Source: Methanococcoides burtonii DSM 6242 (lineage in GTDB: Archaea; Halobacteriota; Methanosarcinia; Methanosarcinales; Methanosarcinaceae). Taken from it: 64,000 nt of DNA. The DNA lies in NCBI RefSeq assembly GCF_000013725.1, contig NC_007955.1, positions 1,209,579 to 1,273,578 of the forward strand, given 5' to 3'. The position numbers were made by a program, and so were the translations under genes. Position 1 is the first letter of the stretch; every line of letters starts with the position of its first letter. The notes under the pieces were generated by a model. That model searched no databases. It was not told the DNA's origin and saw only the letters and a list, made by a program, of their open reading frames with translations. Below are positions 40,237 to 44,472 of this stretch, piece by piece.

Positions 40237-40317
40237 GTCTTTTGGTCTCCTTTGATGTGGAATTGATTTACTAATGAACTATAGTGGGTAAATAAACAAC
40301 AAACCCATAAATAGACT

Positions 40318-40845
40318 TTGTTTGTCAAGTTTGAAGCCCAGGAAGATAATCATTTCAGAGCCTTGAAGGTCCTTGCATACATCGGATTACAATCCGAAGG
40401 AAGTGCAGACTTCCAGGACATATTAGATAACCTTGACATTCAAAAAAGTACACTCTGGCGTTATATCAGTTCTTTAAGAGAACAAGGATTGATTGACATT
40501 AGCAGAAGCTACCATACTTGTGTATTCTTCAAGAAACGTTCAGTATGGGAACAACTCCGGGACCCATTGCTTGCAATAGTCACAGCTCTGGATATAGGTC
40601 TTAAGAAGATCAATGGAGAGTATTTCATTGATTCCGGTATGATTCGCCGTTATCGTGACAGGACGAAAAACCTGAAACCGATAAAGAAAAAGGAATCAAG
40701 AAATCCAAAGTTTGAAAAGATAGTCGTTGAGACCATCCGAGAAGCTGAACAGCTTAACAAGGAGTTCAAGGAGCTTGGAATTAACAAGCGTGCTTCTGTT
40801 CTGTCTACTCACAATACTATGAGGTATAGTCGGGTGATTGGGTGA
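40318..40845 (+). CDS. Winged-helix regulator with TTG start
   Basis: A 175-residue protein with an N-terminal IclR/MarR-like helix-turn-helix: FQDILDNLDIQKSTLWRYIS, then SLREQGLIDISRSY. The basic middle (RRYRDRTKNLKPIKKKE) and C-terminal helices are not recognised. A stop lies two codons upstream in frame and the only usable start is TTG 40318. A TATA-like taaataaac about 25 bases before it would make the mRNA leaderless. It diverges from purB across 81 bases, so it may regulate itself or purB-fmdE; that is inference. Confidence 0.65.
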   Translation: MFVKFEAQEDNHFRALKVLAYIGLQSEGSADFQDILDNLDIQKSTLWRYISSLREQGLIDISRSYHTCVFFKKRSVWEQLRDPLLAIVTALDIGLKKINGEYFIDSGMIRRYRDRTKNLKPIKKKESRNPKFEKIVVETIREAEQLNKEFKELGINKRASVLSTHNTMRYSRVIG

Positions 40846-41000
40846 GCGGTAGCTATCGAAAAGCGGTGAATTAAGTTTGACATTCTTGAATGAAATGTAA
40901 AACTTAGGAATGAGCTGATTTATAAATTACTTTCAACAAGCTCATCATAACTATATATATCAAGCAGAAATACTAATTACTATGAAGACGAGTGAAGCCC

Positions 41001-41855
41001 ATGATTACCCATAAACAAAGAGCACTTCTATCTGTAATAGATCGATTAAATGAAAGAGGCAATGCCACGAAGTTTATGATTGTCAAAAATCTGTTTTTAC
41101 TATCAGTTGAAGAAAATATAGGTAAAGTAATAAAATTCTATCATTTTTTCCCTTATCATTACGGACCTTTTTCAAATGCATACTATGCAGATATAACAAA
41201 ACTTCAAAGTGATGGATTAATTATAGAAAATGATCATCACTTAGAGTTAACTGAAAAAGGAAAAGACGTATCAACAAAAACTGAACGGAAAGCGATATTT
41301 CGAATTAGGAGAGTTGCTAATAAATTTAGTTCTGATAAACAAATTCGTGAATATGTATATGAAAAATATCCAGAATTCACCGTGAAAAGTAAGCTGGTTG
41401 ATAACAAAGAAAAGCAGTTGATTCCGGGCTTGTTTTCAATTGGTTACGAAGGAAGGGACATTGATCAATTTCTTAATTTGTTAATTCAAAATAACATAAA
41501 TATTCTTGCTGATGTCAGAAAAAATCCTTTTAGCATGAAGTTTAGCTTTACAAAAAAGAAATTAAGTACCTATCTTGAAAAAATAGGTATACAGTACATT
41601 CATATTCCAGATTTGGGCATAGAAAGTGATGATCGAAAAGAATTAAATTCTATGACAGACTACCAAAATTTATTTAAAGAATATGCTGATTCAACACTTA
41701 AAAGAAATAAAGAACACCTTGATTATATTTATGAATTGAGCCAAAGCAATAGAGTTGCTATGATGTGCTTTGAAGCTGATATAGATATGTGTCATAGAGG
41801 TGTTATTGCAAAATCAATTGCAAATAGTAAAGGGATAGAGGTCGTAGATATTTGA
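41001..41855 (+). CDS. DUF488 protein with N-terminal winged-helix (SocA/Panacea-like) domain
   Basis: The 284-residue fusion has two domains. Residues about 1-100 look like a winged helix of the DUF4065/SocA kind: KFMIVKNLFLLS, then YHFFPYHYGPFSNAYYADIT and KLQSDGLIIEN. Residues about 145-284 are DUF488: PGLFSIGYEGRDIDQFLNLL, LADVRKNPFSMKFSFTK, and MMCFEADIDMCHRGVIAKS with the conserved Cys-His-Arg. DUF488 biochemistry is unknown. A TATA box (actatatatatc, about 40950) precedes it; GTG 40992 is an alternative start. The gene is much richer in A+T than purB or uvrA and overlaps the next gene by four bases. Confidence 0.75.
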   Translation: MITHKQRALLSVIDRLNERGNATKFMIVKNLFLLSVEENIGKVIKFYHFFPYHYGPFSNAYYADITKLQSDGLIIENDHHLELTEKGKDVSTKTERKAIFRIRRVANKFSSDKQIREYVYEKYPEFTVKSKLVDNKEKQLIPGLFSIGYEGRDIDQFLNLLIQNNINILADVRKNPFSMKFSFTKKKLSTYLEKIGIQYIHIPDLGIESDDRKELNSMTDYQNLFKEYADSTLKRNKEHLDYIYELSQSNRVAMMCFEADIDMCHRGVIAKSIANSKGIEVVDI

Positions 41856-42613
41856 ACCCAAATACAATTGAGCAAGTTCTGGTTTTAGTTCGCGCAACTC
41901 CAGAAAAAAGTAAAAGATATGGACATACTGTTTGTGTTGCAGGTGTAAATCAAAACAATGAGCTACGCAGATTATATCCTTTTAGATTTAATTATGGGGA
42001 TCGCTTGATTAAATTCAAAAAGAAAGATGTAATTGAAGTTAATATTACCAATCCCGATAGCGATATGAGAAGGGAGAGCAGGAAAGCTTCCAGTCACAAA
42101 AATTTATTTTCTCCTCTTAATGACGAAGAAGTCTTAGATCGAATTGCCCCACTCATCTCATCAATTGAAAAATTGAATGTCGAGGATGCAAGTTTAGGCA
42201 TTGTACGACCAATTATAGAAGACGTTGAAGTCATAATTAATAGCACAGATATTATGGATAAACAAGCATTTTTTACTCAGGCAGGAGAGTATTCCGCTCA
42301 AGGTAGAGAAAGAGTAAAGATGCCTGTTGAGGTGCGATATCTATTCAAATGTGAAGGAGAAACAACTTGCAACGGTCATAAAATAATAGTTCTTGATTGG
42401 GAAATAAATGAATTAGTGCGAAATATTATGCAAAAAGATAAAGATCCTAAATCAATTAAAGAAAAAATTAGGTACAAGATGATTGATTATATGGCAAAAA
42501 AAGAGCTTTATCTTATACTAGGAACTCATTTTCAATACAAAACTTGGATGATTATTGGTATTTTTTATCCAGACAAAATTGATAAATCACAAAAAAAACT
42601 TTTTGAATTCTGA
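41852..42613 (+). CDS. Unknown protein translationally coupled to the DUF488 gene
   Basis: A 253-residue protein that starts with TTG inside the stop of the DUF488 gene (TTGA overlap). The N-terminal half is beta-rich: QVLVLVRATPEKSKRYGHTV, then CVAGVNQNNELRRLYPFRF and LIKFKKKDVIEVNIT. The C-terminal half has VEVRYLFKCEGETTCNGHKI followed by IVLDWEINELVRNI. It may be one of the dual-OB-fold proteins found beside DUF488 in other prokaryotes, but I recall this only loosely and give it low weight. It has no membrane segment or signal peptide. It shares its high A+T content with the partner, so the pair was probably acquired as a unit. Confidence 0.6.
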   Translation: MNPNTIEQVLVLVRATPEKSKRYGHTVCVAGVNQNNELRRLYPFRFNYGDRLIKFKKKDVIEVNITNPDSDMRRESRKASSHKNLFSPLNDEEVLDRIAPLISSIEKLNVEDASLGIVRPIIEDVEVIINSTDIMDKQAFFTQAGEYSAQGRERVKMPVEVRYLFKCEGETTCNGHKIIVLDWEINELVRNIMQKDKDPKSIKEKIRYKMIDYMAKKELYLILGTHFQYKTWMIIGIFYPDKIDKSQKKLFEF

Positions 42614-42653
42614 AACGTAAAAAAGACATTGTGCAATATGTGGGAGATATAAA

Positions 42654-42836
42654 ATGGATGAAGAACGCATGAGATCATTAAAAGGTGAATGGAAGTGTGT
42701 ACACTCACAAAACGAATGGTGTACATTTGATCGGATGACTGAGAACGGTCATATCTGTTTGTCAGGTAAACCATGCAATGGATATGAGGATGGGGATTCC
42801 TGCTCATTCAAAGAAACGGTCGAAGATCTTAGATAA
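42654..42836 (+). CDS. Small cysteine-rich protein, 60 residues
   Basis: A short protein with five cysteines in a zinc-finger-like pattern: WKCVHSQNEWCTF, HICLSGKPCNG and DSCSFKE. A gggag ribosome site lies nine bases before the ATG, which supports real translation. It follows the unknown partner gene by 40 bases on the same strand and may belong to that transcript. The fold and function are unknown; metal binding is inferred from the cysteines. Confidence 0.55.
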   Translation: MDEERMRSLKGEWKCVHSQNEWCTFDRMTENGHICLSGKPCNGYEDGDSCSFKETVEDLR

Positions 42837-43153
42837 ATCCTGTCATATTAATAAAACAACAACATTTTTTACCCCGTTCCCTTAGGTACACTCTTAAGGA
42901 CTATGTCTCACTATTGAGACATTCAGCTCGAACATGCTCGAAATTGACTTTCAAAAACTCCAAGAGAAATCGAGATTAATCATATTTTCCCCTCTAAAAA
43001 TGATAAAACTTTGACTCTCATGCACATGTGAGAGAGGTTGGAAATATGGTCTGCGGTTTGAACTGGAAGTCCTCTACCATCTTTGAGCTTACAACATCCT
43101 CATCCTGGGTATCATTGTCCCCGGTTACAGGAGCTTCATCTACTGGTGGCACT
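42837..43153. other. Intergenic region, 317 bases
   Basis: Contains a small hairpin (gtctca ctat tgagac, about 42906-42921). On the minus strand it has an open stretch rich in Asp, Val and Pro (APVTGDNDTQDEDVVSSKM, about 43018-43170) that may be the out-of-frame tail of the integrase relic. No complete gene. Confidence 0.3.
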
Positions 43154-43372
43154 TTATATTCTGGAGCCATATCCTCCAGAGGACGCTCTTGAATGCCTGA
43201 AAAGATGTGGATGAATCCTCTTATTAATACCTGGACTTTTAGCCAATCTTCTAAGGATCATAAGGCAGCCCATATATTGCATGTGTTGCCCTTTTTTGAT
43301 ATTGCCTTTATTCACACACATAACTATCTGAATCGCCCCTGTGTGGATGTATTTCCAACCAGGCGGCAACAT
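43154..43372 (-). pseudogene. Tyrosine recombinase (integrase) remnant
   Basis: The frame encodes RRLAKSPGINKRIHPHLFRH followed by SRA. This is the conserved box of archaeal phage-type integrases with the His and Arg of the catalytic set (HPHLFRHSRA). The usual continuation with the tyrosine nucleophile is missing; the frame runs into SSGGYGSRI and stops. No N-terminal core-binding domain is present. This is a fossil of an integrated element, beside the AT-rich DUF488 block and 600 bases from tRNA-Arg. Confidence 0.6.
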
Positions 43373-43534
43373 AAGGACAACTCGAGATAATGTGTATTCT
43401 TCTCATTCCAGTTTTGCCATATAACTGGATAATACCGCCAACTTAACAATATGATGCCAATAATCTGTGAAAAAATAAAGGGAATGTTTATCTACTGATA
43501 GGGAACATAATTATTTAGTGTAGGGGGAAAAATT

Positions 43535-43942
43535 GTGGAAAAATTACATGTGTTCTTTAAGAAACTTGACAGGAATGAGTTTACAAGTCAGGACATAGAC
43601 CTACTTGTTAAACAGATGACAGATGATGCGAAACAGGGGATCATTGCACTGACAAAGGAAGACAGGCAATGGTTTGAAACCTATGCGTTCGGATTACAGC
43701 AATTTGAAGTGCTTTGCAGTAAAGACTCGTCTAAAATGAGAGCAGGGGACTGGAGACAGGCAGTGGATGATTTTAGCAAAGTCCGGTTCTTTGTGGATGA
43801 TATGGAAGAGAAGAAGCTCGTCAAAAATGTATTCTGGAATGTAGAAGGAATAGTTACATTCGATATCCCTGATAACGCAGGATACAGGAACTTCATTTAT
43901 TGCAGGATCAAAAGTTATCTTGAAAAACTTTATAGAAAATAA
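43535..43942 (+). CDS. Conserved-looking protein of unknown function, 135 residues
   Basis: Starts at GTG 43535 with a GGGGGA ribosome site seven bases before. The sequence is soluble and largely helical (RNEFTSQDIDLLVKQMTDD, EDRQWFETYAFGLQQFEVL). It has an acidic middle and a C-terminal beta/helix unit (GIVTFDIPDNAGYRNFIYCR). I recognise no domain. It ends 23 bases before the 3' end of the convergent tRNA-Arg gene. Codon use resembles the core genes more than the AT-rich block to the left. Confidence 0.6.
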   Translation: MEKLHVFFKKLDRNEFTSQDIDLLVKQMTDDAKQGIIALTKEDRQWFETYAFGLQQFEVLCSKDSSKMRAGDWRQAVDDFSKVRFFVDDMEEKKLVKNVFWNVEGIVTFDIPDNAGYRNFIYCRIKSYLEKLYRK

Positions 43943-43965
43943 TTCCAGATGCTAAAAAGAGTCCG

Positions 43966-44040
43966 TGGCGGGCCCGCCGGGAATCGAACCCGGGTTCTAA
44001 GCTCCGGAGGCTAAAATGATATCCACTACACTACGAGCCC
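43966..44040 (-). tRNA. tRNA-Arg (anticodon CCG)
   Basis: On the minus strand the gene begins gggctcgtagtgtagtgg and ends with an encoded CCA. The acceptor stem gggctcg pairs with cgggccc (one G-T pair). The T arm ccggg-ttcgatt-cccgg is intact. The anticodon loop is ctccgga, so the anticodon is CCG and the codon read is CGG. The anticodon stem has one T-T mismatch. Integrase genes of archaeal elements often target such tRNA genes, and an integrase relic lies 600 bases away, but no attachment-site duplicate was found by eye. Confidence 0.9.
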
Positions 44041-44472
44041 ATTAAATGAATTTGGATTGCTTTGAATAATAATATTCGGATACAAGATCAACACCATATT
44101 GACATCCGATCAACAAAATGCTTATAATTCCGAACATAATCACTACATGTAAAATTAACTATATTAAATAATAGGTTTAGATAAGGGTCAAAGCAAAAAT
44201 ATCAATGAACTTTGAATTTATTGATTCTCCACTACAACCAATTGGATAAATTCCAAAATATGGCCACCGGAATTTGATCATAAACTAAAATTAAGAGTAA
44301 TGTATCCACCTAACAGTATCTCATTGACATAAAATAAGTATTAAAAACATATTAATATAGAATTGTATTAATTAAATGTAGTCGATGAAAAACAGTTAAA
44401 GGTACTTATATTAAGATTTGCATATAGTGCTAATAAATAATCATAAGTGAAAGCAACATAGCGGTATCAAAT
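44041..44472. other. Intergenic region, 432 bases
   Basis: AT-rich DNA containing the promoters of the leftward tRNA gene and the rightward kinase gene (TATA-like attaatatagaattgtatt near 44350-44370). There is no open frame, repeat or RNA gene that I can recognise. Confidence 0.4.

Follow-up and report, generated by a model that had tools for sequence, protein, structure and literature searches.

Two overlapping genes of Methanococcoides burtonii, called A and B here, form a module that is not new, as it is already listed in PADLOC as the candidate system PDC-M19. Protein A joins an N-terminal domain resembling SocA, Panacea and the C-terminal domain of DarG to a DUF488 domain, and protein B is predicted to contain tandem OB folds. 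What is added here to the catalogue entry are the folds, the conserved residues, the gene orders, the N-terminal variants of A and the genomic contexts. We tentatively favour, at somewhat less than even confidence, the view that the pair is a mobile accessory module for defence, the core of which would be a DUF488 enzyme and a tandem-OB protein acting on DNA ends. This view draws on the near-constant pairing of the two genes, their mobility, their restriction and phage contexts and the conservation of their residues; from these, together with the predicted folds, we infer a ligand, a chemistry, a role for one cysteine of B (Cys28) and an antiviral effect.

Candidate systems of this kind in PADLOC derive from a 'guilt-by-embedding' screen and for the most part lack validation, according to the available part of PMC12988326, in which M19 is not named; A-B offers a tractable case among them. 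A literature search for PDC-M19 found no paper naming the system. The A-B pair was also not found described in the literature searched on DUF488, on its superfamily and sister domains, and on DuOB and RapZ, a set outside which the 2023 superfamily classification falls.

A catalogued gene pair in an acquired block

The window, that is, the whole 64,000-nucleotide stretch of DNA that was analysed, carries both genes on its forward strand. Gene A (PDC-M19A) occupies positions 40992-41855 and is 287 codons long when counted from a GTG at 40992; an ATG at 41001 is an alternative start, and the GTG is favoured because the relatives of A measure 286-287 aa. Gene B (PDC-M19B; 41852-42613) begins with TTG. 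The two share four nucleotides, TTGA (41852-41855), in which the stop of A is the start of B, as the first-pass annotation had it, and the DUF488 domain that it assigned to A was recovered by Pfam at 98.7 bits against a cut-off of 22.2. By eye, a Shine-Dalgarno-like GAGGT (41838-41842) lies 9 nt 5' of the TTG of B and a TATA-box-like TATATATA (40952-40959) is found upstream of A, about 33 nt 5' of its GTG, both on the forward strand. Protein A matches the PADLOC model for PDC-M19A (PDLC04505) at 6.5e-88 over residues 3-280, and B matches that for PDC-M19B (PDLC04507) at 8.3e-145 over residues 1-253; nearly full-length matches to both models, from adjacent genes that overlap by 4 nt, place the window's pair in PDC-M19. 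The PDC-M19B model matches all 63 of the B relatives scanned, and A and B also match PHROGs without an assigned function. The earlier description of B as a beta-rich protein without a family agrees with its lack of any Pfam or NCBIfam match and with its beta-rich predicted model.

The empty-site comparison with sister species settles the acquisition of this DNA. A variable insertion site at 40321-43476 is absent from three of them (L153, L154, L159), in which window positions 40320 and 43477 lie only about 45 bp apart, so that a helix-turn-helix gene, A, B, a 60-aa open reading frame (ORF) and an integrase relic are all missing. In L149 and L150 the same site is filled with other cargo, which has the helix-turn-helix gene on one side and a longer integrase relic on the other; in L149 it is a protein read as DUF262/GmrSD-like, and in L150 a long leucine-rich protein. 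The nucleotide match to sister species ends at 40859-40862 and, in L149 as in L150, sets in again at 42865, which delimits a private block of 40863-42864 containing A, B and the 60-aa ORF. The first-pass annotation had suspected acquired cargo, which these empty and alternatively filled sites bear out. It had also described the block as AT-rich, and the GC content is indeed low, at 31.8% in the block, 29.7% in A and 32.4% in B, compared with 41.2% across the window and 49.1% in purB. Composition alone is a weak sign, since other stretches of the window (1-3 kb and 15-17 kb) are equally AT-rich.

The site at 40321-43476 is a small Methanococcoides insertion hotspot, flanked by purB and by a conserved 135-aa gene upstream of tRNA-Arg, with cargo that differs by species. 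The nearby integrase relic and tRNA gene noted earlier were both located on the reverse strand. The former is a tyrosine-integrase relic at 43154-43372 (Pfam Phage_integrase 2.4e-4, below the cut-off) with 151-aa relatives in G090 and G095, and the tRNA-Arg lies at 43966-44040. No tRNA-derived att repeat was found within 40240-44200, which gives no support to the tRNA as the integration site. B is found in two of 11 Methanococcoides genomes; in the second genome with A-B (L151) the pair lies at another place, beside genes read as phage tail genes.

The small five-cysteine protein that had been grouped with A and B is a 60-aa ORF (42654-42836, forward strand) inside the cargo block. It does follow B, but it is placed outside the A-B module because it is conserved in two other genomes without A-B beside it. 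These relatives (L183 and L184, in 2 other genomes of 185 in the order; E below 1e-18; 72% and 70% identity) lie beside unrelated genes. Judged from this conservation, the ORF is probably a real, independent small protein.

Pairing of A and B and their predicted folds

The locus sample is made up of 86 loci, namely the best 80 of 207 chromosomal B matches and 6 viral ones; the B profile finds B in 85 of them and misses the short B of L060. Among these 85, DUF488 lies within 500 bp of B in 70 (within 60 nt in 68), 13 carry a solo form of B and two a truncated B. Outside the solo clade, DUF488 is beside B in 70 of 72 loci of this same sample, and on plasmids it adjoins B in 14 of the 15 loci examined (of 21 found), the exception being pSOG2, which has B and no DUF488 anywhere in the plasmid. 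A and B thus occur together almost always outside one derived clade, which answers the question of co-occurrence that the first-pass annotation had raised. The order is A before B at 60 of the 70 A-B loci, tail-to-tail at nine and B before A at one; ORF starts were set mechanically, so that exact overlaps are approximate. Near-full-length A is found at 20 places in 185 genomes of the order, with B beside 16 and absent at four, in one of which only the tail of B remains. Nine genomes have B and no PDC-M19A match. Methanosarcina acetivorans and Synechococcus elongatus also give matches to these families. The pairwise distances of A and B correlate with r 0.70 overall and r 0.07 among distant pairs. 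At L062 (G180:C11:132110-132685) the beginning of A and the tail of B have apparently been joined by a deletion, and a remnant is left.

The solo form of B is a single clade in the B tree (support 99), nested among paired forms. In Methanosarcinaceae it adjoins an aminotransferase gene, and further out lie GroEL-like and other conserved genes (names assigned by eye), and this clade has probably been domesticated. The solo-B loci L046-L054, L059 and L075 share a conserved chromosomal site and a change of Cys28 to Gly. A conserved locus, of the kind named earlier among the findings that would tell against the module, is seen in the solo-B clade, but the paired form is patchy and lies in variable sites.

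Protein A is made up of two domains, and its AlphaFold2 (AF2) model has a pLDDT of 96.1. The N-terminal domain (residues 2-135 from the ATG; 41004-41405, forward strand) matches the C-terminal domain of DarG (7yk3_B) with Z 12.4 and rmsd 3.2 over 129 aligned residues, the next row having Z 9.8 (AF2 model); sequence support for this likeness is weak (E 0.083). SocA_Panacea (PF13274) gives no Pfam match to the window's A at E up to 0.1 and is matched by 11 of 35 relatives (best 4.3e-5). The SocA-type N-terminus proposed earlier therefore stands through these relatives and the DarG fold, but not through a Pfam match of the window protein itself. Across the family, a Panacea-type domain was detected at 53 of 70 A-B loci and not found at 17, and in three archaeal A proteins (L037, L063, L067) ParB_N and HTH_ParB take its place according to Pfam. 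An archaeal ParB-fold fusion with DUF488-HTH is reported to bind CTP in the available part of PMC12704722. The N-terminus of A is winged-helix-like and basic, with a net charge of +7 and a pI of 9.5 (median +4 over the 35). A sequence test for DarG failed: the order's 'DarG' hits are macro domains, several of them fused to other parts, in which the profile of the A N-terminus detected no C-terminal domain. In L170, from a genome of the same order, an upstream ORF (40-591) with a stand-alone domain like the A N-terminus (profile 1.3e-9) lies 5' of a gene (1501-2781) whose product has a macro domain of the DarG type and, C-terminal to it, a further part.

The second domain of A (residues 154-271 from the ATG; 41460-41813, forward strand) matches DUF488 (PF04343) at 4.5e-28, and its DxR and CxE...CHR residues are conserved: each of the 86 pairs compared retains Y149, D171, R173, C256, E258, C264, H265 and R266. 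This half is Rossmann-like in the AF2 model, with diphthine synthase and tetrapyrrole methylases as its nearest structures (Z about 9). Members of the rhodanese-phosphatase superfamily load phosphate or sulfur onto a cysteine, and the 2023 superfamily classification of Burroughs and Aravind reportedly predicts DNA-end processing in conflict systems for the DUF488 clade. The related DUF4326 branch has been proposed to act on the ribose phosphates of ADP-ribose, as stated in part of PMC9503650. The DUF488 of A, with its motif residues intact, is a probable cysteine enzyme of the rhodanese-phosphatase type.

The AF2 model of B (pLDDT 86.8, pTM 0.84) was compared with known structures in three ways. 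Foldseek returned Teb1 (1.3e-4), RPA, POT1 and telomere end-binding proteins, VIA returned RPA and RecO (Z about 9.5, residues 1-99), and a viral structure library returned the baculovirus protein LEF-3 (2.2e-5). B is predicted from these models to be a tandem OB fold like that of single-stranded DNA (ssDNA) binders; the fold comparison covered residues 1-99 well, and in the second half the strand order fits an OB fold. The Pfam DuOB profile (PF22557, 'Dual OB-containing domain') matched neither the window's B nor any protein of its genome, and among 63 relatives it matched one, weakly (0.0021). Sequence comparison of B with solved structures was set aside, having yielded chance matches only.

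In an alignment of 109 B sequences, which includes near-copies of the same locus, R40, P43, R73, E75, D182, W183 and G224 are invariant. Position 28 (codon 41933-41935, forward strand) is Cys in 98 of 98 non-solo sequences and Gly in 11 of 11 solo ones, and so the partner cysteine disappears exactly where the enzyme is lost. This points at a role for Cys28 in a joint reaction with A. The change to Gly is one evolutionary event, which makes it a lead and no proof; a single clade underlies the link, and in pSOG2 B persists without DUF488.

Genomic contexts and candidate functions

Type I restriction (hsd) genes occur near 11 of 70 A-B loci and near none of 14 solo loci. They are concentrated close to the pair, at 4.3 per 100 kb within 0-4 kb against 0.62 at 4-10 kb, and hsdS and hsdR flank A-B in L084, L085, L102 and L106, a placement apparently shared by L083 (by eye). 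At 59 of the 70 A-B loci no hsd gene was detected within 10 kb, many contigs ending early; the hsd profiles were seeded with proteins of the same loci, so that distant subunits were missed. When the two closest neighbours on either side were taken at 72 loci, Pfam found N6_Mtase (10), ResIII (10), HsdM_N (7), Methylase_S (6) and Eco57I (6), in a scan of 237 of 238 proteins, one L064 ORF being left out of the Pfam and PADLOC tallies. MADS labels in the PADLOC neighbour tallies may stem from cross-matching methylase and specificity subunits; we make no MADS claim. Beside the window's own A-B no restriction genes were found, and the genome's three best N6-methylase matches are located elsewhere.

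On the B tree, phage-borne copies require a minimum of four changes; they include one in a Gordonia phage, beside its repressor and integrase region, copies among Mu-like virion genes, and two more. Some plasmid loci are surrounded by metal-resistance genes. The call for a check of defence islands is thus answered in part: hsd operons and phages do hold family members, but the window's pair has no restriction genes beside it. Similarly, the PADLOC candidate listing and the restriction and phage contexts speak for the defence role that the first-pass annotation had guessed from context, while the 59 loci lacking a detected hsd gene, the metal-resistance surroundings of some plasmid loci and the existence of A without B and of B without A speak against it; as a guess it is better supported than that annotation could know.

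A conserved gene of about 165-175 aa lies directly 3' of B in thermophilic archaea (L034, L037, L064, L073, L074), and its residues E36, D38, E64 and K66 are invariant in these five loci. We read this gene as a putative PD-(D/E)XK-like nuclease, a reading that neither Pfam (two of the five scanned) nor a PDB profile search supported.

It is possible to outline how a defence module of this composition could work. The OB folds of B would bind single-stranded nucleic acid or a DNA end, and the DUF488 of A, through its DxR and CxE...CHR residues, would work on the end held by B by phosphate, ribose or sulfur chemistry, with Cys28 of B forming part of a shared reaction site. The exchangeable N-terminus of A (SocA/DarG-CTD-like, ParB-like or none) would tether or control DUF488. 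Beside restriction systems, A-B may act on cut incoming DNA and block its repair or replication, and where it is set between hsdS and hsdR the module might disable or mark the cleaved DNA. A more specific version, which we regard as distinctly improbable, is that A-B is a novel type of system for modifying nucleic-acid ends. In it, C256 and C264 of DUF488 and Cys28 of B would form a composite or relay active site that transfers sulfur or phosphate and so marks or caps DNA ends, whether these come from restriction cleavage or are exposed by phages. Once A had been lost in Methanosarcinaceae, B would have been free of the reaction, with Cys28 changing to Gly, and the ParB-like and DarG-like N-termini would be exchangeable sensors.

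Alternatively, the module may serve the mobile elements themselves, DUF488 and the OB protein cleaning or protecting broken plasmid or phage ends, including those made by restriction, and thereby helping invaders. Such a repair role for plasmids and phages is the strongest rival, though in our judgement rather unlikely. Plasmids and phages do carry A-B, the predicted model of B resembles RPA, RecO and LEF-3, and some copies lie near RecT and a PD-(D/E)XK gene, near RadC and SSB, near SSB, or near Mre11/Rad50-like genes (L055, by eye). DUF488 is also placed near RadC and UvrD helicase on Methanoperedens plasmids in the available part of PMC9674854. These repair contexts are single cases with no background count, however, and the recurrent neighbours on chromosomes are restriction genes, between which (hsdS and hsdR) A-B lies at four loci.

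It has to be considered as well that the pair might work as DarTG does, by reversible modification or as a toxin-antitoxin, B modifying or blocking ssDNA and A neutralising and reversing the effect. The DarG C-terminal fold of residues 2-135 and the SocA_Panacea matches among the relatives of A invite this comparison, as do the position of A, upstream of B and overlapping or abutting it at most loci, and the placement of DarTG2, which likewise lies between hsdS and hsdR according to part of PMC12255303. The C-terminal domain of DarG blocks DarT via ssDNA mimicry, as described in part of PMC11481870, but the N-terminus of A is basic and no acidic ssDNA mimic, which weakens the idea for A. Moreover, the front domain was not found at 17 of 70 loci, and the model of B is OB-like, unlike an ADP-ribosyltransferase. 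A type II toxin-antitoxin system would not be expected to keep its toxin without the antitoxin, whereas the nine genomes with B and no PDC-M19A match, mainly of the solo clade, argue that B is tolerated alone, at least in its solo form. Taken together, we consider a DarTG-like mechanism quite unlikely.

A third idea is that A-B regulates the adjacent operon, the winged helix of A controlling hsd or phage genes with DUF488 and B as sensors of a nucleotide or end signal. The basic, winged-helix-like N-terminus would suit such a task, and restriction islands have small regulators such as RptR (part of PMC12255303), but the winged helix is absent at many loci where DUF488 and B persist and the enzyme motif is intact in 86 of 86, which leaves regulation very improbable. 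That A and B have been domesticated or serve metabolism, with no conflict role, and owe their contexts solely to a common mode of movement, seems scarcely probable, as the aminotransferase setting in Methanosarcinaceae that favours it is seen in the solo clade only, and elsewhere the family is patchy (two of 11 Methanococcoides) and found in variable sites, plasmids and phages.

A-B gives a clear handle on DUF488 proteins, which are widespread, as it offers a near-constant partner of predicted fold and an invariant enzyme motif. Should an activity on DNA ends prove true, its chemistry would, to our knowledge, be new for restriction-linked immunity.

Comparison with known systems

The comparison with DarTG is attractive because of the shared fold of the front domain and the embedding position, both systems being able to sit between hsdS and hsdR. 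In contrast to DarTG, A has no macro domain by Pfam and no DarT partner; it carries DUF488 instead, and B is predicted to be an OB protein. The basic charge, the solo form of B and the absence of the front domain at many loci argue against a direct copy of the DarTG mechanism. Toxin-antitoxin systems with Panacea (SocA-like) domains are similar in that the upstream one of two paired genes encodes a Panacea-like domain, but the A of the window falls below the Pfam reporting limit and B exists alone. B is not known to be a Panacea-linked toxin.

RPA, RecO, telomere end-binding proteins and LEF-3 share a predicted OB architecture with B; no sequence relationship to them was found, and B differs in its invariant R40, R73, E75, D182 and W183 and its pairing-linked Cys28. 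Within the DUF488 superfamily, A carries the intact motif residues. The likeness to PDC-M19, itself a catalogue entry, lies in the match of both window proteins to its models and in the adjacency of their genes.
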